Shown here: piece after piece, positions 15,324 through 33,030 of the stretch
Numbering within the stretch: the stretch's first letter is position 1
Layout of the letters: every line of letters starts with the position of its first letter
NCBI GenBank assembly: GCA_003222195.1
Contig: QHVB01000032.1
Span: 1 to 64,000 of the forward strand
DNA length: 64,000 nucleotides
Direction of reading: 5' to 3'
Source: Gemmatimonadota bacterium
GTDB taxonomy: Bacteria > Gemmatimonadota > Gemmatimonadetes > Gemmatimonadales > GWC2-71-9
Notes under the pieces: model-generated
The model's input: only the letters and a program-made list of their open reading frames with translations
What the model was told of the DNA's origin: nothing
The model's database searches: none
Made by a program: the position numbers and the translations under genes

Positions 15324-17192
15324 TCAGACGCCGTGCAGTTGTTTCACCGCGCGATCGGCTTCGCGAATCGAGTTCCGATGATCGCTGGCCCCAGCGAGGT
15401 CCGTATTCGCAAACGCGATCCGCCCGTGCGGACGATTCCGCAGGACGTCCCGCGGCGCCGGCTGGCCATTGATGCCGAAAAAGAATCCCGGCTGCGGATT
15501 CACGTACGCGTGGCCCCAGCGATTGAGAATGATGCCGGCGATGTCCCGGCGCGGATCGAACCCACCGGGCGCAAACATGTCGGCGAGCTGCTCGCGGAAT
15601 GCGCGCTCGTACTCCGCGAACGACGTGCCGAGCAGCTGCGCGCGTCCCCGGCTCCCTTGCTCGGCGATCGAGAGGCCGGGCTGGGCGAAGAGGACCTTGA
15701 TGGTCAGCACGGTCGGTGAGTCAGGACCGATGGTGCGGGGCTCGTGGCCGACAAGCGCCATCTTCCGTACCGAGAGGTAGTCGCCGAGTCCGCCGAACCA
15801 GCGGCAGCCGGACAATCCCATTTTGTAGAGGAAGCGCCAGTTCCGGACGGCGATGTTGGCCATCAAGCACGGCGATCGATAAAACTGCGCGTACGCGTCG
15901 CGATGGCTGGCGGGGAGGTCATGCACGATATGCTTCGCGGTCCAGCTACCGCCCGCCACGACGACCGACCGCGCCCTGACGTTGTAGACTTTCTTGCCCT
16001 TCGCGTACGTGACGACAACGTGCGACGCGCTCGCGGGATCGCCGGCGTGCTCGACGCGGACGACTGTGGAATTGAGCCGAAGCCGTGTCGCTTGGCCAGC
16101 GCGATCGAGCGCGCGGAAGTTGACCCGATTTTGCCACACCGCGTCGACGGTGCGCGGGCCGGCGAAGGCGTCGGCGATGAGCGTCTTCACCATCAGCCGC
16201 GCGAATCCGCCGTTGCCGTCGGGGAACATCTGGTCGCCGAGCTGGTCGCCGCCGTCCTCCGGAAATTGGTTCTCGATGGCGTAGTTGCAGTAGGCCGACA
16301 GCACGTCGGGGCCAAGGCCGTAGCCACCGCCCTCGACTGGCGACAGAAACGTGCGCACGGTCTCGCGGCTGAGGTTGTATCGCGCCATCAAGTGATCTTC
16401 CAGTGTGATCGCGTCGAGCTGGCGCGAGATGGCGTCGCCCTCGGTCTGTGGGCGCGGTCCGTCGACGCCGCCCGTCCGCCAGCGTAGCAACTCCGCTCGC
16501 GTGGTTTCACTGATCGGAGCGCCTTCGAGCTTCCGTCCCCACGGGTCCAGGACCCATACGCCGGGTCGCTGGCCGAACCGCGGTCCGAAGTAGAAGCCAT
16601 AATTCCTCGGCGTCTCGTACGGCGAGTGAGCCAGCGGCATCTCGGGCGACGGCCCGCCCCACGTCTGGTAGGCGAACGTGGAGCGATCCATGCCGATCAT
16701 CTCGTAAAAGCGATCGGTATAGCCACCTTTCCCCGGGACGAGGAAGATCGCGGAGCCCTGGTGCGCGGTCAGCCGCTGCCCGTCGACGAGGAACTCGTTG
16801 CGCTTTGCTTCACCGCCGAAGATCGGGTGGTTGTCGATGACGAGGCAGCGACCGCCTTTGTATTTCTGGAAGAAGATCGCGGCCGCGAGTCCGCTGATTC
16901 CGCCGCCGACGGCGACGAGGTCGTACGTCTCGCCGGTGTCGATGGCGTTGGCGACACGCGTTTCGAACGCGCCATCGCGCAGCGCGTGTCCGGCGCTCAG
17001 GACATCCCAGGTGTTGCCGTTCGAGTGTCGGTAGTCGCCAATGCCGCCGTAGCCGTTGAAGGCGTCGGCCGGGGAGATCGTTGGCGCTTGACCGGGGAGG
17101 AGGAACCCGGCGCCGGCGAGGAGCGCGCCGTTGAGAAAGTCGCGGCGGGAGATCGGCTCGCTCAAGCCGAGGCTATCGTGGGGAGTGCGCAT
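15324..17192 (-). CDS. Tat-exported FAD oxidoreductase, spermidine dehydrogenase-like
   Basis: 622 residues. A twin-arginine signal is clear (PISRRDFLNGALLAGAG), so the folded flavoprotein should be exported. FAD-binding VAVGGGISGLAAAIFFQKY follows near residue 90, then FGGEAKRNEF and the conserved opening NGYGGIGDY. This arrangement resembles the periplasmic spermidine dehydrogenase family (SpdH of Pseudomonas), which cleaves polyamines and passes electrons to the respiratory chain; similarity is recalled from motifs, not measured. AGGA lies directly before the ATG. It is downstream of the tRNA terminator with no partner gene in operon distance, and the GH2 gene starts 78 bases further on. 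Confidence 0.7.
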   Translation of the reverse strand: MRTPHDSLGLSEPISRRDFLNGALLAGAGFLLPGQAPTISPADAFNGYGGIGDYRHSNGNTWDVLSAGHALRDGAFETRVANAIDTGETYDLVAVGGGISGLAAAIFFQKYKGGRCLVIDNHPIFGGEAKRNEFLVDGQRLTAHQGSAIFLVPGKGGYTDRFYEMIGMDRSTFAYQTWGGPSPEMPLAHSPYETPRNYGFYFGPRFGQRPGVWVLDPWGRKLEGAPISETTRAELLRWRTGGVDGPRPQTEGDAISRQLDAITLEDHLMARYNLSRETVRTFLSPVEGGGYGLGPDVLSAYCNYAIENQFPEDGGDQLGDQMFPDGNGGFARLMVKTLIADAFAGPRTVDAVWQNRVNFRALDRAGQATRLRLNSTVVRVEHAGDPASASHVVVTYAKGKKVYNVRARSVVVAGGSWTAKHIVHDLPASHRDAYAQFYRSPCLMANIAVRNWRFLYKMGLSGCRWFGGLGDYLSVRKMALVGHEPRTIGPDSPTVLTIKVLFAQPGLSIAEQGSRGRAQLLGTSFAEYERAFREQLADMFAPGGFDPRRDIAGIILNRWGHAYVNPQPGFFFGINGQPAPRDVLRNRPHGRIAFANTDLAGASDHRNSIREADRAVKQLHGV

Positions 17193-22787: not shown

Positions 22788-24086
22788 CTACAGTCTGATG
22801 TCGATGTAAATCTGCCGGCGCAGCTGATCGATGAAATGCCGGATCGCGAGCTGATCACTGAGCGACTGGCGGATTCGCAGCTTCACATCGTCGAACGACA
22901 GCTCGCCGGCGGCATGGCGCGCCGTGACTTCGAGCACGATGAACTTGATGCGCGGCGTGTCCGCCCCTTCTGTGAACACGGGCTTCAGTCCGAGGGTCGT
23001 GTCGGCAGCAACGGCCTTCTGATACTCGGGAGGCATTTCTGTCAGCGGAGCATCTTCCGCCAGCTTCGGCTCCAGCGGATCGGCGTACCGCTTCGCCAAT
23101 GAATCGAACGACACCTGGGGCGACCCTCGCGCGAGCACTCCATGCAGCGAATCGGCCAGGCGGCGAGCGATCGCGATTTGCCCCTGACTGATTTCGGGCG
23201 TGATCAGGATATGGCGCGCGAGGATCTCGGCCGGCTGCGTCCGTTCCACATTGATGATGTGGAAGCCGAACGATGTTTCCACCGGAAAGGAGATCTCTCC
23301 GGGCCGGAGCCGGAACGCCACGTCCTCGAACTCCTTGACCATGACGCCGCGCCGGAACCAGCCCAGCTCACCGTCCTGCGCCGCGGACGCGCTGTCGTTC
23401 GAGAATCGCTTCGCCGTGGCGCCAAAGTCCCCGCCGTGCCGCAGCTGGACCACCAGCGACTCGGCGCGCTCGAACGCCCGCAGCCGCGCGGCCGAATCCG
23501 CGACCGGCTTGATGACGATCTGCCGGAACGAAACCGCCGCCGGCCGCTTGGGCTGCTGATCCTTGTTCTGCTGCCAAAACTCCCGCATCTGCGTTTCTGT
23601 GGGCGGGATGGGCCGGAGCTTGCCCTTCTGCCGTTGCGCTTCGATCAAACGCTGCGCGAGGAGCTGCCGGCGCTGCTGGTCGCTCAACCACCGCCGCCAT
23701 TCCTCTACCGATCCAAACCGCGCCTGCCGGATCTGATCGCGGAAATCGTTTTCGGAGGTGAACTGCTTACGGACATTCTGGTAGGTCTGCTCTACCTGAT
23801 CGAGAACCTCCTGATCAGTGACTTTGATCGACGTATCGCGCTCCGCCTGCTGCACGAGGATTTCTACCTCGACCAGGCGATCCAGAATCTGGCGCCGCAG
23901 CGTCGCGAGACCGGCGGAGTCGGTCGGGAGCGGCTGCCCCTGCGCTTGCTGCTGGACCATTTCTTCATCGATTTGCGACGCCAGGATCGGATGCGTGCCG
24001 ACGACGGCGACGATCCGGTCCAGCGTCTGCGCCGTGGCGCTCGCCGAGAGCATGGAAGCGGCGAGGAGTAAGGCGAGAGCTCTCAT
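22788..24086 (-). CDS. surA: Periplasmic peptidyl-prolyl isomerase/chaperone SurA
   Basis: 432 residues with a cleavable signal (MRALALLLAASMLSASATAQ). The SurA N-domain (about 21-165) includes VAVVGTHPILASQIDEE. The first PpiC parvulin domain (about 175-275; GELGWFRRGVMVKEFEDVAF, FGFHIINVE) is complete, and a second (about 278-380) is degenerate. SurA carries unfolded outer-membrane proteins to the BAM complex. The ATG overlaps the stop of the upstream PpiC lipoprotein gene by four bases. The placement directly before pdxA is also seen in E. coli (surA-pdxA), which supports the call. Confidence 0.93.
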   Translation of the reverse strand: MRALALLLAASMLSASATAQTLDRIVAVVGTHPILASQIDEEMVQQQAQGQPLPTDSAGLATLRRQILDRLVEVEILVQQAERDTSIKVTDQEVLDQVEQTYQNVRKQFTSENDFRDQIRQARFGSVEEWRRWLSDQQRRQLLAQRLIEAQRQKGKLRPIPPTETQMREFWQQNKDQQPKRPAAVSFRQIVIKPVADSAARLRAFERAESLVVQLRHGGDFGATAKRFSNDSASAAQDGELGWFRRGVMVKEFEDVAFRLRPGEISFPVETSFGFHIINVERTQPAEILARHILITPEISQGQIAIARRLADSLHGVLARGSPQVSFDSLAKRYADPLEPKLAEDAPLTEMPPEYQKAVAADTTLGLKPVFTEGADTPRIKFIVLEVTARHAAGELSFDDVKLRIRQSLSDQLAIRHFIDQLRRQIYIDIRL

Positions 24087-25570
24087 CGCGGCGACCGCAC
24101 TCTTCCCGGCGCGGGGTGCCGGGCGGTATCGATTGGCGGAGGTCCAGGGGCCGGCGTCATGCGTGGTGCCCCCCCCCCCGCCCCCCCCCCGACTCCACCT
24201 GCCTGGGTCGAATCGGCGCGCAGCTCCTCACCGCGCTCCGCAGCGCGTCGGATCCCCGCTTGATCCACGCTCCAGTTGCCTTGCTCGCGCAGCCTCTCGG
24301 CCAGGAACATCGGGACCGGGAAATAGCGCGCCCGCTTATGAAGCACGCGGTCCAGATAGTCGTTCACGCGGGCGGCGGCAAAGGTGACGCGCTGTTGAGC
24401 GGACGTCCCGGCCGAATCCCGCAGTGCCTCGGGCGTGAGGTTCAAAATCGTCGTGAGCGTGGCGATCGTGGAATCATGCTCTTCGCGAACCTGCCGCCAG
24501 TCGTCCGGGCTGAGTGTGACCTTCGCGGAGTCTGCCTGTTCCAGCAGCAGCTGCCGCTGCGTGATCGCCTTGAGGAATTGGTTGATTTGCTGATCGCTGG
24601 CCGATGGCAGCGACTGCAGCAGCTGGGGGTTGAGGGCCGCGAGCCAGCGCATCAAGTCCCGGACCTTGAGCGAGCCGCCGCGGAACTTCACGAGCACGCG
24701 AGTACTGGTGCGCGCACCGTCGATATCCTGCACGGCCGTGCGCACGTAGTCGGGCGCGCGCCCCACGGGCTGGATGCGACGCTTGATATCGAGGCTGTCG
24801 ACGTACACGGAGTCCAGCTCGCGGGTAATTTGGGACTCGAGGCCCACGCGGAACGAATCCCGCACCTCAGCCAGCGGCGGCCGCCGGATGATGTGATAGC
24901 CAAATTGCGTTCTGACCACGGAACTGACGCCGCCGGGCGCGAGCTGCCATGCGGCCTCCTCGAACTGCGGGACGAACTGGCCGTGGGTCGCGAGCCCCAG
25001 TGAGCCGCCCGCTGTCTTGGCGCTGGGATCTTCTGAGTAACGCACGGCCAGCTGGGAAAACCGCACGCCGGCGGCGCGGGCCTGCGGCAGCAGCTGCTCG
25101 GCTTGCCGATGTTTGCGGTTGTCGATGCTGTCCGCGGCGTTCTGGGGCACCTGAAACAGAATGTGCTGGAACACGCGAACCTGGCCTGTCTGATAGGCCG
25201 AGTCCACCTGCTGCGGCGTGAGACTCTCGCGGGCGGTGATGCGGTTGTGGAGCTTTTGCCACTTGATCTGCGACACCATTGGCCACATCGTGGCCGCCGC
25301 GGTCGCGGAATCGTGGAGGTCTTTTCCGCCTGCCAGCGCTTCCGCAAAGAGCGTGTAATCCACCCAGGCGTGCGACACGCGGCCAAGCGTCTGCGGATCG
25401 AGCGGCAGATCTCGGTTCACACCCGCCCACCCGGCGAGCCGGTCCACCGTCAGAGTCTGGCCGTTGGCGCGCGCCACGACATCGGCGCGCGACGAGAACG
25501 CGTCGCGCAGCGCGTCGCATCCAACCAGCGTGAGTGTCAACGCCACGAACACCAGACTCGAACGTCGCAT
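24083..25570 (-). CDS. PpiC-type peptidyl-prolyl isomerase lipoprotein
   Basis: 495 residues from ATG 25570, preceded by AAAGGA at good spacing; an upstream frame to 25762 only duplicates the end of mfd. The signal ends TLVGC (lipobox, Cys 18). The parvulin domain lies at about 125-240 (GQVRVFQHILFQVP, GGSLGLATHGQFVPQFEE, FGYHII). The rest is helical and SurA/PrsA-like. It should act as a membrane-anchored folding catalyst beside SurA. The C-terminal ~50 residues are low complexity and contain a G10-C-G11 coding-strand tract (24169-24190), so the reading frame there could slip. It sits 13 bases after mfd. Confidence 0.88.
   Translation of the reverse strand: MRRSSLVFVALTLTLVGCDALRDAFSSRADVVARANGQTLTVDRLAGWAGVNRDLPLDPQTLGRVSHAWVDYTLFAEALAGGKDLHDSATAAATMWPMVSQIKWQKLHNRITARESLTPQQVDSAYQTGQVRVFQHILFQVPQNAADSIDNRKHRQAEQLLPQARAAGVRFSQLAVRYSEDPSAKTAGGSLGLATHGQFVPQFEEAAWQLAPGGVSSVVRTQFGYHIIRRPPLAEVRDSFRVGLESQITRELDSVYVDSLDIKRRIQPVGRAPDYVRTAVQDIDGARTSTRVLVKFRGGSLKVRDLMRWLAALNPQLLQSLPSASDQQINQFLKAITQRQLLLEQADSAKVTLSPDDWRQVREEHDSTIATLTTILNLTPEALRDSAGTSAQQRVTFAAARVNDYLDRVLHKRARYFPVPMFLAERLREQGNWSVDQAGIRRAAERGEELRADSTQAGGVGGGAGGGAPRMTPAPGPPPIDTARHPAPGRVRSPR
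24169..24190. repeat. C11-G-C10 homopolymer tract
   Basis: Eleven C, one G and ten C on the plus strand form an almost uninterrupted 22-base tract inside the last 40 codons of the PpiC lipoprotein gene, encoding a glycine-rich segment. It is the longest G/C homopolymer of the window and prone to slippage as well as to sequencing error. Confidence 0.9.
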
Positions 25571-25583
25571 CCGTTTCCTTTCC

Positions 25584-28500
25584 CTAATTACGATGATGAT
25601 CGCGGAGTACGGCCGTGAGCGCCCGGACGAGGCCGGGGCCGATCGACTCTCCGCCGAGCCGGCGGAGCCTGAGGGAGAGCGGCACCGCGCGCCGCACATC
25701 CGCTTCGAACTGCACGGCTTCGAGCGCCACCTGCAGGCCCGCCAGCCGCGGCGCTGCATCACGCCGGAATGTCAGCCGCGCCTCGTCGCCCTTGATCAGG
25801 ACCGTCTCCAGGCCCGTCCGCGCGCCCAGTGCGCGCAACTCGGCGACTAGCAACAGGCGCTCCGCGTCAGCCGGCAACGGCCCGAAACGGTCACGCAGTT
25901 CGTCACGGACGGCTTGAATCTCACCTGGTTGCTCCGCCCGCGCCAGCCGCCGGTAGAAATCCAGCTTCGTGTCGTCATCGGTGACGTACTCATCCGGCAA
26001 ATGCGCCGGCGCATCCAATGTCACGTCGGGAGGGGCGAACTCTTCCCGCTTCCCCCGTCCCCTCTCCCCGCTCTTCAGCCCGCGCACTGTCTCGTCCAGC
26101 CACCGGAGATACATGTCGAAGCCGACCGCCTGGACGTGCCCCGACTGCTCGCCACCCAGCAGGTTCCCGGCTCCGCGCAGCTCGAGATCGCGCAGCGCAA
26201 TCCGGTACCCGGATCCCAGATCAGTATGATGCTCGAGCACCTGCAAACGTTCCTCTGCCTGGTCATCGACCAGGTCGGGCACGAGCAGATAACAGAAGGC
26301 GCGTCGATGGCTGCGCCCGACCCGTCCCCGCAGCTGGTAGAGCTGCGCGAGCCCGAGCCGATCGGCGCGATCCACAATCATGGTGTTGGCGTTCGGCACA
26401 TCGAGCCCCGATTCGACGATCATCGTGGATACGAGAATGTCCACCTCGCCGCGCACGAATCGCCCCATCACGGCCTCGAGATCCGGTTCGCGCATCTGCC
26501 CGTGCGCGACCGCGAAGCGCGCGCGCGGCGCAAGCGCCTGCACGCGCGCGGCGATCGTGTCGATCGTCTCGATCCGGTTGTGCACGAAGTAGACCTGGCC
26601 GCCGCGGTCGAGCTCGCGCGCCATTGCTTCCTCGAGCAGCGCATCGTCCCAGGGCTCCACGAATGTGAGAATCGGTGAGCGGTCTTTGGGCGCCGTCTCG
26701 AGCAGCGTGAGATCGCGCAGCCCCGCCAGCGACAGATGCAGCGTTCGCGGAATCGGTGTTGCGGTCAGCGTCAACACATCGATGCTCAGCTTCAGTGCCT
26801 TGAGACGCTCTTTGTGTCGAACGCCGAAGCGATGCTCCTCGTCGACAATCAGCAGCCCCAGGTCCTTGAACGTGACGTCCGCGGACAGGAGCCGGTGGGT
26901 TCCGATGACGACGTCCACCTCCCCACCGGTAAGGCGCTGGACGATGGGCCCGGCCTCTTTTGCGCTCCGAAAGCGCGAGAGCACTTCGATGCGGACCGGG
27001 TAATCGGCCAGCCGCTCGCGGAATGTACGGCCGTGCTGCTCGGCGAGGATCGTGGTCGGCACGAGGACCGCGACCTGCTTGCCCGCCTGCACCGCCTTGA
27101 ACGCGGCGCGCACCGCTACTTCGGTCTTGCCGTAGCCGACGTCCCCCACGAGCAGTCGGTCCATCGGACGGGCGCGCTCCATGTCGCGCTTGACCTCGTC
27201 CGACGCGCGCCGCTGGTCGGGGGTGTCCTCATAGAGGAAGGCAGACTCGAGCTCGCGCTGCCACGGCGTATCGGGCGGGAAGGCATACCCGTGGGCGAGC
27301 TGACGCCGCGCATACAAGTCCAGCAGCTCCGCCGCCATCGCCCGAATCGCGGCCCGCGTCTTGTCGCGCTGACGCTGCCAGGTCGTTGCGCCCAGACGAT
27401 GGAGACGCGGCGGGGGCGCGTCGCCATCTCCCGCGGTGCGATAGGGCTCGAGCTGATCGATCCGGTAGAGGGGGACGTTGAGGCGATCACCCCCCTCGTA
27501 TTCCACCACCGCAACCTCGAGTGTCGCGCCATCCGAACCGACGGAGATGGTCTGCAAACCGCGGTAGATGCCGATCCCATGCTCGAGGTGCACCACATAC
27601 CCGCCCGGGGTCAGGGGCCGGGACGCGGCCGTCGTGACCGCGCTGCGGTAACGGCGTGGGCGCCGCAGTCGGCGCGCGCGCCGGAAGACCTCGTGATCGG
27701 TCAGGACGCGCAGCGTCGGCAGGATGAATCCGCCCTCGAGCGCCCCCACAACGAGCGTTGCCCGGTCAGCGCCAAGCAGTTCCTCTAGACGTTCGAGCTG
27801 GCCTTCGTTGTCGCACAGAATCACCGTCGGCGGTGGCTCGGCGACAATCTGGCGAAGGCGTTTCATGTCGCGGTCGATGTGCTCCGGCGGAGCGAGCGGG
27901 AACCGCTGCTCCGTCTCGGCGTCGGACAGCGCAATGCGAGGGAGGGTAAGGAGTCTCGCTCGCCACTGCGCCGGATCCTCGAGCAAATCCTCACGCGCCG
28001 GCGGTTCCTCTCCCATGCGGCGCGCGACCTCGAGATGATGGGCCGCATCCGCCCAGGCGCGTTCGACCTCTCGGTCGACGGCCGACTCTTGATCGGTGAC
28101 GACGATCGTGTCGGTGGGAAGCAGCTCGAGGAGGTTGCTGCGGCGCGATCCCGTGGGAGCGGGCGTCTTGAGCTGTTCGGATTTCACCGGGAGGATAGTC
28201 ACCCGACTCAGGACCTCGCCGGACCGCTGCGTGTCCAAGTCGAAGCTGCGCACCGACGCAACCTCGTCGCCCCACCATTCGATCCGCGCGGGCGTCGCCA
28301 TCCCGAAGCCATACACGTCGAGAATGCCGCCCCGGACGCTGTACTGCGCGACTTCCGTCACTGTCGGCACACGCGCGTACCCCATCCCAATCAGTCGCTC
28401 CGCGGTCTCGGACAGACTCCTTGCTTCTTTACTGACTTCGATGACGAGGCGCGCCTGCTCGAGCGCAGCCGGGACGGCGGTCCGCTCAGCGGTGGCTCGT

Positions 28501-28868
28501 GCGGTGGTGATCAGAACGCGAACGGCTCCGCGCAGTAGCGCCTCGATCGTTTCGATGCGCTCGCCGGCGAGCTCGTAGTGCGGCTCTTCGGCACCCAGCG
28601 ACTCGCGTTGCGGATATAACGCGGTCACGTCGGATCCGAGCAGGGTCTGCAGATCTGCGAGCCAGCGTTCGGCATCCGCGGGCGTGGGCGCCACGATGGC
28701 GAACACGCGTTGCGGCAGCCGGCGAGCCAGCGTGGAGACCAGCACCGCCGGGCTTGACCCGGGCAGCCCCCCCACACCGACGCGCATCCCGGAAGCTGGC
28801 AGCCGCTCGATGAGCGAGCGCGTGGCGGGAAGTTCCTGGAACCTCTCGAGCAGGAAGTCGAGTGCCAT
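25584..28868 (-). CDS. mfd: Transcription-repair coupling factor Mfd
   Basis: 1094 residues, slightly short of the 1148 of E. coli. The UvrB-homology region (1-~330) is followed by the RNA polymerase interaction domain (YRIDQLEPYR, near 480), the translocase with Walker A GDVGYGKTEVA and DEEH box (IVDEEHRFGV), the TRG region and the C-terminal D7 domain. Mfd removes stalled RNA polymerase and recruits UvrA. The ATG shares one base with the stop of the BatA-like gene (TGATG). A short linker before D7 (KSGERGRGKREEFAPP) is encoded by a pyrimidine-rich repeat relative at 26041-26076. Confidence 0.97.
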   Translation of the reverse strand: MALDFLLERFQELPATRSLIERLPASGMRVGVGGLPGSSPAVLVSTLARRLPQRVFAIVAPTPADAERWLADLQTLLGSDVTALYPQRESLGAEEPHYELAGERIETIEALLRGAVRVLITTARATAERTAVPAALEQARLVIEVSKEARSLSETAERLIGMGYARVPTVTEVAQYSVRGGILDVYGFGMATPARIEWWGDEVASVRSFDLDTQRSGEVLSRVTILPVKSEQLKTPAPTGSRRSNLLELLPTDTIVVTDQESAVDREVERAWADAAHHLEVARRMGEEPPAREDLLEDPAQWRARLLTLPRIALSDAETEQRFPLAPPEHIDRDMKRLRQIVAEPPPTVILCDNEGQLERLEELLGADRATLVVGALEGGFILPTLRVLTDHEVFRRARRLRRPRRYRSAVTTAASRPLTPGGYVVHLEHGIGIYRGLQTISVGSDGATLEVAVVEYEGGDRLNVPLYRIDQLEPYRTAGDGDAPPPRLHRLGATTWQRQRDKTRAAIRAMAAELLDLYARRQLAHGYAFPPDTPWQRELESAFLYEDTPDQRRASDEVKRDMERARPMDRLLVGDVGYGKTEVAVRAAFKAVQAGKQVAVLVPTTILAEQHGRTFRERLADYPVRIEVLSRFRSAKEAGPIVQRLTGGEVDVVIGTHRLLSADVTFKDLGLLIVDEEHRFGVRHKERLKALKLSIDVLTLTATPIPRTLHLSLAGLRDLTLLETAPKDRSPILTFVEPWDDALLEEAMARELDRGGQVYFVHNRIETIDTIAARVQALAPRARFAVAHGQMREPDLEAVMGRFVRGEVDILVSTMIVESGLDVPNANTMIVDRADRLGLAQLYQLRGRVGRSHRRAFCYLLVPDLVDDQAEERLQVLEHHTDLGSGYRIALRDLELRGAGNLLGGEQSGHVQAVGFDMYLRWLDETVRGLKSGERGRGKREEFAPPDVTLDAPAHLPDEYVTDDDTKLDFYRRLARAEQPGEIQAVRDELRDRFGPLPADAERLLLVAELRALGARTGLETVLIKGDEARLTFRRDAAPRLAGLQVALEAVQFEADVRRAVPLSLRLRRLGGESIGPGLVRALTAVLRDHHRN
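26041..26076. repeat. Pyrimidine-rich segment related to the envC inverted repeat
   Basis: This 36-base C/T tract in mfd shares CTTCCCGCTTCCCCC exactly (26042-26056) with the right arm of the inverted repeat in the envC-like gene (54428-54442), and the flanking composition is similar. It encodes a variable linker of Mfd. Confidence 0.55.
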
Positions 28869-30634
28869 CAGCGCGTGCGAGTGGCGACCACCAGCTCGGT
28901 CGCCGCGAGCAGCAAGGCGAGGATGAGCAGCAGCATACTCGCATCCGCGCGCCGCGTCCCCGAGAACCGCTCGATGGCGAAGTCGTTCGCGCTCAGCACC
29001 TCGGCGCGATCCCTTCCCCCCAAAGCCGCCGTCGCGAGCGCCGGCGTGGCGGGCGTGAGATCCGATTCGCGTGGGTCGGGACCAAACACCGTCGCGCCCA
29101 CGGTATCAGCGCCGCGCGTGCGAAACTGGACGTGCGGCGCACCTTCCGCGGAACTCACCTCTGCCTGCCCGATCGCGATTCGATTGACGAGTGCGTCGAT
29201 GAAGGGCACGAACCCCGGCGTCGTGGGCAATGTGGTCCAGGCCGTGTCGAGCCGGCTGCCCAGCAACACGACATTCCCGGAGCGAACCAGCCAGGGCTCG
29301 CCGTTTACTGTCGCGAGTACCCCGTCTGAAGCGCCCCCCCCTCCTCCCCCTCCCCCTCCCCCTCCCCCCTCGAGCCGGTAGCGACGCGCGACCGGTGTAC
29401 CGTCGAGAACCGGGACCTGCGGTGCCGTAATGCTGCCCGGCGTACCCGGCTGTCCCCAGTGCCAGGGCACTCCGCGCGACGCGAGTGTGCGATTCGCCTG
29501 GCCGACGAGCGCCGCATCAGCCGGCGGCTGCACGATCGCAGCTCCTGCTGATGCGGGAGACGCCTCGCCGCCACTGATCACGACATCACGGCCCTCGCTG
29601 ACCCGCCGTCCCTCCTGCAGGACGGCAAGTGCAGCCGCTACGAACGAGCCCGCTCCCGACGTCGCCGTAACGCGTGCCGGTGGCGCAACACGCCAGGTGA
29701 AAGGTCGACGGTCGTCGGCCCGCAGCTCGTCGGGTTCGAGTGCCGCCTCGCCGATCCACCAGCCCGGCGCCAGCGATTGTGCCGGCAGGGACACAGTGAC
29801 CGCCGACCCCAGCGTCGCGAGACCACGCGCGGCGATTTCGCCGCGGTCGCGTTGCCCGCCGCCGATGTGAATGGTGACAGGCACCGGTTGCGGCGAGTCG
29901 TTGCCGCCTGCCCCCGAGCCGCTGAGCGCGATGATCGCCGCGCCTTCCGACACGGTGATCGACGCGATCCCCCGGTTGGCGACCGCACGCCCTGGTTCGA
30001 GGGCGAGGACACGCACGCCTGGTGGGACAGCGGCACGCCCTGAGATCAGCGCGGTGCGCTGCAGGTCACTCAAGACGTGTACTTCGCGTCCCTGCAGCGG
30101 CTGCGCGTCGACCATGCGGGCGGCGCGTTCGACGGCTTGCACGAGGTCCAGCCGTTGCCAGCCACTGTGCGTGCTGTCGACGATCGCGAGCAGTGCTTCG
30201 CGAGTGCCGCCACGCAGCACGCCGTCACACAACATCAGCCACAACCGATCGGCGGAGGTCGTCCGCGCGAGCGAGGAACGTGCCGCGACGCGGAGCCGGT
30301 CCAGCACGAGGCCGCCGTCCACAACCGCTCCGGAGGACGGGGAGTTGTCGAGAATGATGACCGCAGCGGTCGGTTGATGGGCCCCGCCGCCCCGCAGCGG
30401 CACGAGCGGTCGCGCCGCAGCGAGTACGATCATCACGATCAACGCGGTCCGCAGAACCAGTAGGAGTAGGTGCCGCAGCTTCAACCGTCGAGCGCTTTCC
30501 CGCTCGGCCGCGCTCAGGTAACGGACGGGCGGGAAATCGAGCTCCGGGGGAACGCGGCGCTGAAGGAGGTGGAGCAGCGCCGGGATCGCCGCGGCAGCGA
30601 GCCCCAACAAGGCCAGCGGGTGAAGGAAGCTCAC
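28868..30634 (-). CDS. BatA-type membrane protein with VWA-like domain
   Basis: 588 residues from GTG 30634, which overlaps the stop of the DUF58 gene by four bases (GTGA); a longer frame is rejected because the BatA N-terminal motif starts here (SFLHPLALLGLAAAAIPALL). Two N-terminal membrane helices are followed by a VWA-like region with a DxSxS metal-site motif (ILDNSPSSG, near 95) and a final hydrophobic segment (MLLLILALLLAATELVVATR). Relatives sit in Bacteroides aerotolerance (Bat) and MoxR-DUF58 clusters. A poly-glycine run (residues ~460-475) comes from a CCCCCT repeat at 29334-29369. Confidence 0.85.
   Translation of the reverse strand: MSFLHPLALLGLAAAAIPALLHLLQRRVPPELDFPPVRYLSAAERESARRLKLRHLLLLVLRTALIVMIVLAAARPLVPLRGGGAHQPTAAVIILDNSPSSGAVVDGGLVLDRLRVAARSSLARTTSADRLWLMLCDGVLRGGTREALLAIVDSTHSGWQRLDLVQAVERAARMVDAQPLQGREVHVLSDLQRTALISGRAAVPPGVRVLALEPGRAVANRGIASITVSEGAAIIALSGSGAGGNDSPQPVPVTIHIGGGQRDRGEIAARGLATLGSAVTVSLPAQSLAPGWWIGEAALEPDELRADDRRPFTWRVAPPARVTATSGAGSFVAAALAVLQEGRRVSEGRDVVISGGEASPASAGAAIVQPPADAALVGQANRTLASRGVPWHWGQPGTPGSITAPQVPVLDGTPVARRYRLEGGGGGGGGGGGGASDGVLATVNGEPWLVRSGNVVLLGSRLDTAWTTLPTTPGFVPFIDALVNRIAIGQAEVSSAEGAPHVQFRTRGADTVGATVFGPDPRESDLTPATPALATAALGGRDRAEVLSANDFAIERFSGTRRADASMLLLILALLLAATELVVATRTR
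29334..29369. repeat. C-rich hexanucleotide repeat (CCCCCT-type)
   Basis: A C7 start followed by CCT and several CCCCCT units lies in the coding region of the BatA-type protein and gives a run of about a dozen glycines on the minus strand. Confidence 0.85.
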
Positions 30635-31551
30635 GTCAACAGGCGCAGCGCGAGACCAAACGGCATGTCGGTCTGTACGTGATGGTAGCTGATGCCATGC
30701 CGGCGGCAGGCTTTCCGCCACGCCGCGATTTCTCGCCGCACTGTCTCAGCGTAGGCGCGCGCCAGCTCCCGGGGCCGCACGACGACGCTCAGCGACGACT
30801 CGGGGTCGCGGAACCGCACCTCCGGCGGACCACTGAGGTCCACTTCAGCTGGATCCATCAGATGAAAGACGACGACTTGATGCCCGCGGTGGCGCAAATA
30901 GCGCAGCGCGGCGAGTGCCAGCTCTCGATCAAACAGCAGATCGGAGAGCAGCACGACCATCCCGCGGCGCGTGAGCAGCGCGGTCAGTCGTTGGAGCGCC
31001 GCATTGGCCGCAGTCCCCTGCCCGTCCGGCGTGTCCAGCAGGCCGCGCACGATGCGCGTCCACTGACCCGCTTTCACGCGCGCGGGGACCACTTGACGGA
31101 CCTGGTCATCGAAGGTGACGAGGCCCGTCGCGTCACGCTGCCGTAACAGGATCAGCGCCAGCGCGGCGGCCAGCCGGTCGGCATATGCGCGCTTGGTGAG
31201 ACGTTCCGGCGTCCCCTGCCACGCCATCGAGCGACTGACATCGACGAGGACCATGGCGCGCAGATTGGTTTCTTCTTCGAATTGCTTCACGAATAGCCGA
31301 TCGGAGCGACCCAGAATCCGCCAATCCAGATACCGCAGCTCATCGCCCGCCTGGTACGCCCGATGCTCGGTGAACTCGACGGAGAATCCGCGGAAGGGTG
31401 ATCGATGTACGCCGGCCAGAAAGCCCTCCACCACCCCCTCAGCGACGATTTCGATGCCGCCGAGGCGGGCGACCTCGGCAGGATCGAGAAGATCTAGACG
31501 TTGAGCCAAGAAATGTCCTTGCCGTGGGACAGCCGGGATGGATGGTGACAT
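30631..31551 (-). CDS. DUF58 domain protein (VWA-like)
   Basis: 306 residues from ATG 31551. The DUF58 core GDELRYLDWRILGRSDRLFV lies near residue 75, followed by a VWA fold with the metal-site motif DVSRSMAW. DUF58 proteins usually pair with a MoxR AAA+ ATPase and Bat-type membrane proteins; here the BatA-type gene follows directly but no MoxR gene is present. The gene heads the operon DUF58-batA-mfd-ppiC-surA-pdxA. TATAAT lies nine bases before the ATG, leaving at most a few bases of leader, and no ribosome-binding site is seen. A TTG two codons upstream (31557) is less likely. Confidence 0.88.
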   Translation of the reverse strand: MSPSIPAVPRQGHFLAQRLDLLDPAEVARLGGIEIVAEGVVEGFLAGVHRSPFRGFSVEFTEHRAYQAGDELRYLDWRILGRSDRLFVKQFEEETNLRAMVLVDVSRSMAWQGTPERLTKRAYADRLAAALALILLRQRDATGLVTFDDQVRQVVPARVKAGQWTRIVRGLLDTPDGQGTAANAALQRLTALLTRRGMVVLLSDLLFDRELALAALRYLRHRGHQVVVFHLMDPAEVDLSGPPEVRFRDPESSLSVVVRPRELARAYAETVRREIAAWRKACRRHGISYHHVQTDMPFGLALRLLT

Positions 31552-31589
31552 GGCCAAGTCATTATAGCAATATAATTTAGGCGTATTCG
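31545..31589. promoter_or_regulatory. Interleaved divergent promoters (DUF58-mfd operon / DUF4384 gene)
   Basis: Two TATAAT boxes lie back to back: 31566-31561 on the minus strand and 31571-31576 on the plus strand. The plausible -35 elements (GTGACA 31545-31550 for the plus strand with a long 20-base spacer; TCGAAT near 31589-31584 for the minus strand) each lie beyond the other -10, so two polymerases could not bind at once. The -10 boxes are clear; the -35 boxes are weak. Confidence 0.6.
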
Positions 31590-31632
31590 ACCTATGGCAT
31601 AGTCTCTGCCCTAGGCGGGGCCGGGAGGCTTC

Positions 31633-33030
31633 ATGTTCACAACCATCGCTTTACTCAGCTTGGGCTTCGTGTCCACGCCGGCCGTTCGGGCGCCGAGTCT
31701 CTACCGCCCGCGCATCGAGCTGTGGGCCAACCGCGGCGACGCGGCCGTTTATACCCGCGGTGAGCGCGTGCGGCTGTTTTTCCGCCTCGATCAGGACGCC
31801 TATGTCACGATCTTCCGTGTGGATACGGACGGTCGTGTGCGTGTGTTGTTCCCGCGCGATCCGTGGGAAGACAACTTCGCGCGTGGCGGCCGGGACCTCG
31901 CGGTCGACGGCCGCGAGTTGGGGAGCGATGCCTTCACGATCGACGACTATCCCGGCGTCGGTTACCTGTTCGCGGTCGCGTCGGCAGACGCATTCGTCTA
32001 CGACCAGATCGAGAGCGGCGATCACTGGGATTATCGCTCCATCGCAGATGGCCGTGTCCGTGGCGATCCATACGTCGCGATGACCGATCTCGCTCAGCGC
32101 ATCGTCCCGGAGGGGTACTCGGACTGGGACTATGACGTCATCTCGTACAACGTCGGTCAGCACTACGACTATCCCCGCTTCCTGTGCTACGACTGCCACA
32201 GCTATGTGAGCTATTCCTCCTGGGATCCGTACTACACCTCGTGCGTTCGTTTCCGCATGTTCGTGTACGACGATCCCTCGTACTATCCATATCGCTACTA
32301 TGGCGGCGGCCGTGTCGTGTTCGTGCGCCCCTACCGCCCGCAGCCGCGCTTCATCTTCAAGGATTGGGGATCGGAGCGGCCCAGCCGCGAGGGCTTCGTC
32401 TCGCGCGAGCGTGAACGCCCGGTCAACGACAATGGGCGCCGCGGGGTAACAGGCCGCGACTTGGGTGGCCTCGGCATCATCCCGCCTCCCAATGTGCGCG
32501 ATCGCCGCGATCGTCCCGGCGACAACCGGAACAATGGAAACAACGGGAACAACGGGAATAACGGGAATAACGGCAACAACGGTAACAACGGCAACAACGG
32601 CAACAACGGCAACGACGATCGCGGTCGGCGTGAGCATCCGGATCACCCGGATCACCCGCAGCACCCGGACAATCCGGGTCGCCGCGAGCGGCCCGAGGAC
32701 AGCAGGTCTTCGGATCGGCCCATGGTGCTCCCTCCGTCGGACCGGGCGCGAGGGAATCCTGGACTGCGAGCGGTGGAGCCTCGGCGCGACGAGCCACGGC
32801 GCATCGAACCGCGGACTGTCGAGCCGCGAAATGAGCCTCGGCGTGAGGAGCCACGGCGCGTCGAGCCGCGGAACGAACCGCGCAATGAGCCGCGGAGTCA
32901 GCCGGCGCGGACTGAGCCCCGGAACGAACCGCGCAGCCAGCCGCAGCCGCGGGCGGAACCAAGTCGCGATCCGCCACGCGAGTCCTCGAAGCCGCGTAAC
33001 GAGCCTGAGGTGCGGCGGCGCAAGCCCTGA
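31633..33030 (+). CDS. DUF4384 domain protein with Asn/Gly and Arg/Glu/Pro repeat tail
   Basis: 465 residues. A signal peptide is followed by a DUF4384 domain (about 25-160; RVRLFFRLDQDAYVTIFRVD, GRVRVLFPRDPW). A Tyr-rich central part (YDYPRFLCYDCHSYVSYSSW) precedes a low-complexity tail: about nine N-N-G units (32521-32620) and many EPR-type units (32770-32990), with net positive charge. DUF4384 is found in secreted or membrane proteins of unknown function, often in Gram-negative soil bacteria. GGGAGG at 31623-31628 serves the ATG. Transcription likely starts at TATAAT 31571-31576 and ends at the terminator after the gene. It is monocistronic. Confidence 0.85.
   Translation: MFTTIALLSLGFVSTPAVRAPSLYRPRIELWANRGDAAVYTRGERVRLFFRLDQDAYVTIFRVDTDGRVRVLFPRDPWEDNFARGGRDLAVDGRELGSDAFTIDDYPGVGYLFAVASADAFVYDQIESGDHWDYRSIADGRVRGDPYVAMTDLAQRIVPEGYSDWDYDVISYNVGQHYDYPRFLCYDCHSYVSYSSWDPYYTSCVRFRMFVYDDPSYYPYRYYGGGRVVFVRPYRPQPRFIFKDWGSERPSREGFVSRERERPVNDNGRRGVTGRDLGGLGIIPPPNVRDRRDRPGDNRNNGNNGNNGNNGNNGNNGNNGNNGNNGNDDRGRREHPDHPDHPQHPDNPGRRERPEDSRSSDRPMVLPPSDRARGNPGLRAVEPRRDEPRRIEPRTVEPRNEPRREEPRRVEPRNEPRNEPRSQPARTEPRNEPRSQPQPRAEPSRDPPRESSKPRNEPEVRRRKP
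32521..32620 (+). repeat. Nine-base repeat encoding (Asn-Asn-Gly)n
   Basis: About nine imperfect copies of a 9-base unit (AACAACGGN/AATAACGGN) occur in tandem in the DUF4384 gene and give an Asn/Gly linker. Variation is almost all at third codon positions, so the peptide repeat is kept while the DNA drifts. Confidence 0.85.

Follow-up and report, generated by a model that had tools for sequence, protein, structure and literature searches.

A predicted sigma-54 promoter and a genus-specific pair of opposed TATAAT boxes in a divergent Gemmatimonadota locus

How is transcription divided between two divergent gene sets when the DNA that separates them carries two perfect TATAAT hexamers pointing in opposite directions? 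An earlier note on this stretch, a window of 64,000 nucleotides from the 3.5-Mb genome of a Gemmatimonadota soil bacterium (G000), had read the hexamers as interleaved back-to-back promoters, one for a DUF58-mfd-surA operon and one for a DUF4384 gene, with polymerase on either blocking the other. Our comparison of the window with related genomes points to a partly different arrangement. The locus is best seen as an enhancer-dependent sigma-54 promoter in which a pair of -10 sequences, specific to the genus, lies between enhancer and promoter. The genes and hexamers are as follows.

22788..25762, minus strand: two PPIC/SurA-type proteins, at 24083-25762 (start uncertain) and 22788-24086, both with a Rotamase domain and the second with SurA_N
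25584..28868, minus strand: Mfd, with TRCF, CarD_TRCF_RID and UvrB_inter domains
28868..30721, minus strand: protein with a BatA N-terminal domain (PF07584), second gene of the putative operon
30631..31509, minus strand: DUF58 protein (PF01882), likely start TTG at 31509 rather than 31557
31566..31561, minus strand: TATAAT box preceded by TGC, as in an extended -10
31571-31576, plus strand: TATAAT box
31633..33030, plus strand: DUF4384 protein of 465 aa (PF14326, E 1.7e-12), with asparagine/glycine repeats and a hydrophobic N terminus

The two opposed boxes, separated by four bases (31567-31570) and both held in CATTATAGCAATATAATTTA (31560-31579), are just as the earlier note had described them. 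They are the only exact copies of TATAAT in the window, for which shuffled sequences gave an expectation of 1.43. As a pair (ATTATA-N4-TATAAT) they occur once in G000, with an expectation of 0.0004 per 3.5 Mb from a first-order Markov estimate, and a search of 61 genomes recovered the exact pair in five, each time at this locus and in no genome outside the genus; the reversed control pattern matched in one of the 61 (G003). The low expectation, the single copy and the restriction to one locus together indicate that the pair did not arise by chance.

The locus is present in nine of the ten genomes of the genus. Across eight of these (L001-L008), 20 of the 25 positions of the block 31555-31579 are invariant; the spacers on either side have 1 of 23 and 1 of 15. 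All six positions of the plus hexamer are invariant in all eight genomes, and four of six in the minus hexamer, which reads TATAAT in five genomes and AATAAT, TGTAAT and CATAAT in the others. One base ahead of the minus box lies TG in L001-L005 and L007, AG in L006 and TC in L008. The ninth genome, L009, lacks the plus box and reads AATAAT on the minus strand. We rejected a full consensus sigma-70 promoter because a consensus scan of 31000-32200 returned no complete -35/-10 combination, and the genus alignment contained no TTGACA-like or conserved -35 at 17-bp spacing in either direction.

A sigma-54 element with a phased palindrome upstream

Three further elements lie between the genes, among them a sigma-54 element shortly ahead of the DUF4384 Shine-Dalgarno sequence.

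31514..31531, no strand: palindrome TGTCC-N8-GGACA, putative UAS of an enhancer-binding protein, 81 bp upstream of TGGCA
31595..31610, plus strand: -24/-12 element TGGCATAGTCTCTGCC (GG-N10-GC, TGGCA...TGC) for DUF4384, predicted transcription start near 31621
31623-31628, plus strand: Shine-Dalgarno sequence GGGAGG of DUF4384

GG-N10-GC was kept in 29 of the 30 DUF58 loci that we examined first, the remaining locus (L023) having N at the element. Across the order GG-N10-GC is constant but the letters in the middle of TGGCA...TGCC are not, and we therefore rejected the reading of this sequence as a hairpin or operator. The -12 consensus for sigma-54 is TTGCA/T, from which the CTGCC of the window differs. 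A gene for rpoN (PF04552) is present in G000 (G000:C85) and in 37 of 41 genomes. Six sigma-54-like matches occur in the window, and only the one at 31595 is accompanied by a palindrome (10 of 10 positions, with 7 or fewer at the others).

The half sites of the palindrome are invariant at all ten positions in L001-L008, and across the order they mostly follow [TC]GTC[CA]-N8-GGAC[AG]. TGGCA stands at a distance of 81 from it in every one of the nine genus genomes; in the 37 remaining DUF58 loci with both elements the figure is 90-94 or 100-103, so that the steps come to about one helical turn (~10.5 bp). Over 52 modules of palindrome and sigma-54 element (L001-L008 counted as one, L009 counted apart, palindromes scoring below 9 excluded, and a few members such as L065 chance-like), the phase concentration at 10.5 bp was R=0.71, which 0 of 20000 simulations reached. 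For 30 modules at other genes it was R=0.51, with 7 of 20000 random sets as high; this set had lost L241 and L247 from an original 32, TGGCA being followed there by a base other than C or T, and its uniform null is slightly too wide because the 200-genome phylum search that contributed to it covered the shorter spacing range. Neither test allows for relatedness among the loci, which are not independent, and the phasing is therefore less significant than these figures suggest. A second exact TGTCC-N8-GGACA occurs in the window at 16987-17004, with no sigma-54-like match nearby.

The module is also linked to DUF4384. The comparison took in 128 DUF58 loci, 112 of them distinct after removal of repeats of the same stretch, and we called a locus DUF4384-linked when a tblastn match to the DUF4384 domain of the window lay within the same fetched stretch. 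Palindromes were accepted at 8 of 10 positions, and 42 of the 46 accepted scored 9 or 10. DUF58 identity refers to the best local segment, and L031-L049 were fetched for the first part of DUF58 only, so the group at 60% identity or above includes some more distant genomes. In that group both elements accompanied 40 of the 42 DUF4384-linked loci (the exceptions being L043 and L047), whereas among the 19 loci without a detected DUF4384, 6 had both elements, 1 (L022) had the sigma-54 element only and 12 had neither; these 12 include L032, L033, L035 and L036, which belong to the same family, and L023 with its N. Below 60% identity (51 loci, mostly from other phyla), one locus had a sigma-54 motif and none had both elements. 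That one, L153, is a distant Gemmatimonadales locus with DUF4384, a sigma-54 element and a palindrome below threshold.

These comparisons suggest that DUF4384 most probably owes its activation to a sigma-54 promoter that is older than the TATAAT boxes and separate from them, with an activator site of its own. The assignment of the plus TATAAT as the DUF4384 promoter is not supported: the element conserved across the order is the sigma-54 promoter with its upstream palindrome, and L009, in the same genus, has no plus box. The reading from the TATAAT boxes alone was plausible yet incomplete, and the sigma-54 promoter, which it had missed, corrects it. The plus box itself, genus-specific and without a -35, may contribute a weak sigma-70 start, or may be no more than the AT-rich flank of the neighboring mid element described below.

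A candidate DUF58 promoter and a possible bending site

At the likely DUF58 start (31509), the aligned codon is TTG in five, CTG in two and ATG in one of eight genomes, and the homologous part of DUF58 in more distant genomes mostly sets in around residue 16-20 of the longer frame. The corresponding Shine-Dalgarno sequence, AAGGA (31516..31520, minus strand), overlaps the palindrome. Near this start and next to the palindrome, TTA[GC][CG]TT stands in all 18 of the close loci other than L001-L008 (L009 being among the 18) and in none of the eight loci L001-L008, a count restricted to module-bearing loci of 82% identity or more. We had widened the pattern by eye from TTAGCTT, the exact form of which occurs in 15 of the 18 loci and in none of L001-L008. 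The sequence lies 8-11 bases ahead of a start codon in the 15 loci measured, and it may be a -10-like element, which has been lost in eight of the nine genus genomes; L009 combines the older-looking TTA[GC][CG]TT element with a partial new minus box. The DUF58 promoter thus seems, from this alignment, to have moved within the genus, and the locus offers an example of activator site and housekeeping promoter being rearranged within a single genus.

With the TTA element lost and the start codon placed at 31509, the strongest candidate for a promoter is the minus TATAAT upstream, and the leader then takes in the palindrome. The minus box is plausibly the -10 of the DUF58-mfd-surA promoter in this genus, with a predicted start near 31554. 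In L009-L013 and L130-L143, TTA[GC][CG]TT stands 8-11 bases ahead of DUF58 and, if it is a -10, would yield leaderless or nearly leaderless transcripts. We also considered a leader peptide beginning at the ATG of the minus-strand TATAATG, which is open by eye in eight genomes, and rejected it on account of its unconserved middle and its start inside the -10 box. One CTA leucine codon in DUF58 (31494-31496, minus strand) is invariant in L001-L008; in another frame it gives a conserved TAG, the stop at which a frame begun in TATAATG would close after 22 codons.

The minus box overlaps one more element.

31555..31564, no strand: CAAGTCATTA, a YAAN4TTR element 40 bp before TGGCA that resembles an IHF core; putative bending site

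This sequence is invariant at all ten positions in L001-L008. The IHF core site is WATCAANNNNTTR, and YAAN4TTR is part of the IHF consensus; CAAGTCATTA fits CAANNNNTTR, and the bases that precede it do not fit the WAT of the core. Two HU/IHF-family proteins are encoded in G000, and their best models are IHF subunits, both below the curated cut-offs: one scores 93.1 bits for IHF beta (cut-off 115), the other 79.1 for IHF alpha (cut-off 111), with HU beta close behind at 77.4.

Because the minus TATAAT overlaps CAAGTCATTA, a bending site is a real rival explanation for part of the conservation of the block. We consider it possible, though clearly the less probable reading, that the whole AT-rich block at 31555-31579 is a site for an IHF/HU-like or other regulator serving sigma-54, and that the TATAATs are simply its AT-rich sequence. 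The concentration of invariant positions in the block relative to its spacers would fit such a site, as would the IHF-like proteins of G000 and the presence of TAACTCATTG between the activator sites and the promoter of E. coli glmY. The position of the core is likewise suggestive, with YAAN4TTR lying at -40/-41 from TGGCA in 16 of 52 modules and at any other offset in at most 5; however, the same figure means that just 16 of the 52 have the exact core at that place, and among the 32 modules of the other-gene set it falls within -44..-27 in only 7. Moreover, the AT-rich extension was seen in L001-L008 only, and a block devoted to bending would leave the DUF58 operon of this genus without a recognized promoter.

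A possible conflict between the two transcription units

We regard as the probable arrangement an enhancer-dependent sigma-54 promoter for DUF4384 opposite a housekeeping promoter for DUF58-mfd-surA. An enhancer-binding protein would bind the palindrome at 31514-31531, DNA bending at 31555-31564 would bring it to the sigma-54 polymerase waiting at 31595-31610, and DUF4384 transcription would start near 31621 once that polymerase was activated. In this genus the DUF58 operon would be read from the minus TATAAT (31566-31561). A start near 31554 would place the activator site 24-41 bases inside the transcript, overlapping the Shine-Dalgarno sequence, and because this site covers both leader and Shine-Dalgarno sequence, the bound activator could block the operon, acting as a roadblock. 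Conversely, sigma-70 polymerase on the minus box would crowd the sigma-54 site. The main conflict is more likely to set the activated sigma-54 promoter and its bound activator against the DUF58 promoter. Any exclusivity of transcription, or inverse regulation of the operon and DUF4384, is inferred. Two features fit this arrangement poorly: the TGTAAT of L006 would make a poor -10, and the plus box is better conserved than the minus box.

Much of the back-to-back reading is compatible with these results, in that the pair is not accidental, is conserved in the genus and has a minus box that fits the DUF58 operon, and the footprints overlap in principle, such that polymerases could hardly occupy both TATAATs at once. 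The further proposal, that the boxes form two sigma-70 promoters that block each other and make the operon and DUF4384 alternate, seems unlikely. Perfect boxes 4 bp apart in single copy, with a plus box invariant in eight of eight genomes, are what it would lead one to expect, but neither direction has a conserved -35, and the pair is confined to the genus whereas the sigma-54 element is order-wide. Known symmetric -10 bidirectional promoters do resemble the locus in having opposed -10 sequences within the same few bases (PMC10268837, PMC12825309). There, however, the -10 sequences reciprocally overlap and the class is defined by divergent starts 7-25 bp apart (PMC10268837), whereas the window has two separate hexamers whose starts, predicted by the usual -10 spacing, are 31554 and 31583, 29 bp apart and outside that range. 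In addition, PMC12825309 reports no polymerase competition at basal activity for five E. coli bidirectional promoters, with repression only once one direction was substantially activated.

Still less probable is that the palindrome is a repressor operator of the DUF58 operon, unrelated to sigma-54: it does overlap the DUF58 leader in the genus and adjoin TTA[GC][CG]TT in close relatives, but it recurs at phased distances before the sigma-54 elements of other genes. Finally, that the TATAATs are accidents of a GC-rich genome is scarcely credible, since the 1.43 expected per 64 kb applies to single boxes and neither the expectation for the pair nor its conservation in eight genomes agrees with chance.

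The preferred arrangement, a sigma-54 promoter with an upstream activator site, has a close parallel in E. coli glmY. According to PMC6075780, QseF, assisted by IHF, binds TGTN12ACA; it drives rpoE as well, and glmY has in addition a weak sigma-70 promoter that overlaps. The QseF/GlrR consensus from that source is fitted by TGTCCTTGCCGTGGGACA at 31514-31531. As a sequence control, the glmY region of E. coli K-12 contained three TGTC-N10-GACA sites and TGGCACAGTTACTGC at -27, with TAACTCATTG between them. The glmY sigma-54 promoter matches 13 of 15 letters of TGGCACAGTCTCTGC (L003, L004, L005, L007 and L008) and 12 of 15 of the window, and the likeness extends to the TGT-N12-ACA sites, a possible role of IHF, sigma-70 activity in the region and an envelope theme. 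In contrast to glmY, the window has one activator site rather than three, placed closer (81 bp to TGGCA) and within the leader of a divergent operon, and no protein passes the GlrR cut-off. The likeness in sites and target classes is close; the scores of the G000 activators against the GlrR model do not support membership in a QseF/GlrR regulon.

A second parallel is the E. coli pspF/pspA region, where a sigma-54 and a divergent sigma-70 promoter share one enhancer region and the activator can repress the divergent gene. There the divergent gene encodes the activator itself, whereas in the window it is an envelope/repair operon.

A candidate envelope regulon

The strict combination of palindrome and sigma-54 pattern occurred in 18 of 61 genomes at the shorter spacing, in 17 of 61 at the longer spacing and in 24 of 200 genomes of the phylum search, some of the last identical with those of the 61-genome searches; the reversed strict pattern had no match in any of the three. 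Within the genus, a looser pattern matched in 9 of 10 genomes (5 of 10 for the reversed control) and found no new place. Downstream genes, chosen by a simple rule rather than from annotation, include OMP_b-brl barrels (L059, L067, L239), LpoB (L066), TonB (L246), DUF3300 (L237), OmpA (L249) and, by eye, lipoprotein-like genes (L060-L064, L235 and others), of which L060 and L243 have no Pfam match. ECF sigma genes are among the classes preceded by a module across the phylum: in other Gemmatimonadota genomes L097, L240 and L242 have sigma-70 region 2 domains, the latter two with region 4 as well, recalling the control of rpoE by QseF (PMC6075780). Some matches look like chance (for example L065, L241 and L247).

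The DUF4384 gene looks, by this shared module, like one member of a larger group of outer-envelope genes that answer to the same sigma-54 control. We would tentatively extend this to a Gemmatimonadota envelope regulon in which one TGTCC-N8-GGACA-binding activator might serve outer-membrane barrels, lipoproteins, LpoB, TonB, DUF4384 proteins and ECF sigma factors, and might at this locus turn DUF4384 on and DUF58-mfd-surA off through the leader. Were that so, the likeness to enterobacterial glmY/rpoE control by QseF/GlrR would be a convergence on both the site and the kind of envelope target. In a shallow literature search, which judged the papers listed by title and opening of the abstract, no account of such a regulon in this phylum turned up; the phylum goes unmentioned in passages of PMC12316311 and appears once, in a reference, in those of PMC3162934. 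Because the module is recognizable from sequence, it offers a direct route to predicting and testing such a regulon in the phylum.

Which protein might bind the palindrome? G000 has 15 matches to PF00158, 10 of them strong and belonging to full enhancer-binding proteins, and none of these ten passes the GlrR model cut-off of 763, the highest score being 371.9 (L070), with 349.4 for L074 and 335.6 for L077. Among six E. coli proteins, GlrR is the best match to the C-terminal region of both L074 and L077, although full-length L074 is closest to ZraR. A GlrR-type helix-turn-helix (E<=1e-6) was found in 42 of 61 genomes, comprising 24 of 32 with the strict module and 18 of 29 others, a weak association, and was absent from the module-bearing genomes G003, G016, G020, G025, G027, G041, G054 and G060. 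With the cut-off unreached and the association weak, we rejected a GlrR orthologue as the activator. L070- and L072-type activators occur in all five genomes compared (G000, G027, G037, G039 and G041; 4 of 30 loci returned no protein and 6 of 36 matches had no locus) and so are still candidates. Palindromes near the activator genes were uninformative, the one GTCC-N8-GGAC among 15 loci (at L077) being judged not meaningful. In Desulfovibrio, according to PMC4641369, three groups of activator motifs have TGT/ACA half sites separated by 9, 11 or 12 bp, and likeness of motif does not always parallel likeness of DNA-binding domain, so that a motif alone cannot name its activator.

The PEP-CTERM/PrsR regulon is likewise comparable, with a conserved activator motif and a sigma-54 motif before surface-protein genes and a regulator usually encoded near exopolysaccharide genes (PMC1569441). 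It differs in that L074 and L077 fall below the PrsR-type model TIGR02915 (365.9 and 364.2 bits against a cut-off of 502.6). L074 (G000:C79) and L077 (G000:C13) have similar GlrR-type helix-turn-helix domains, and their neighbors resemble exopolysaccharide genes by eye.
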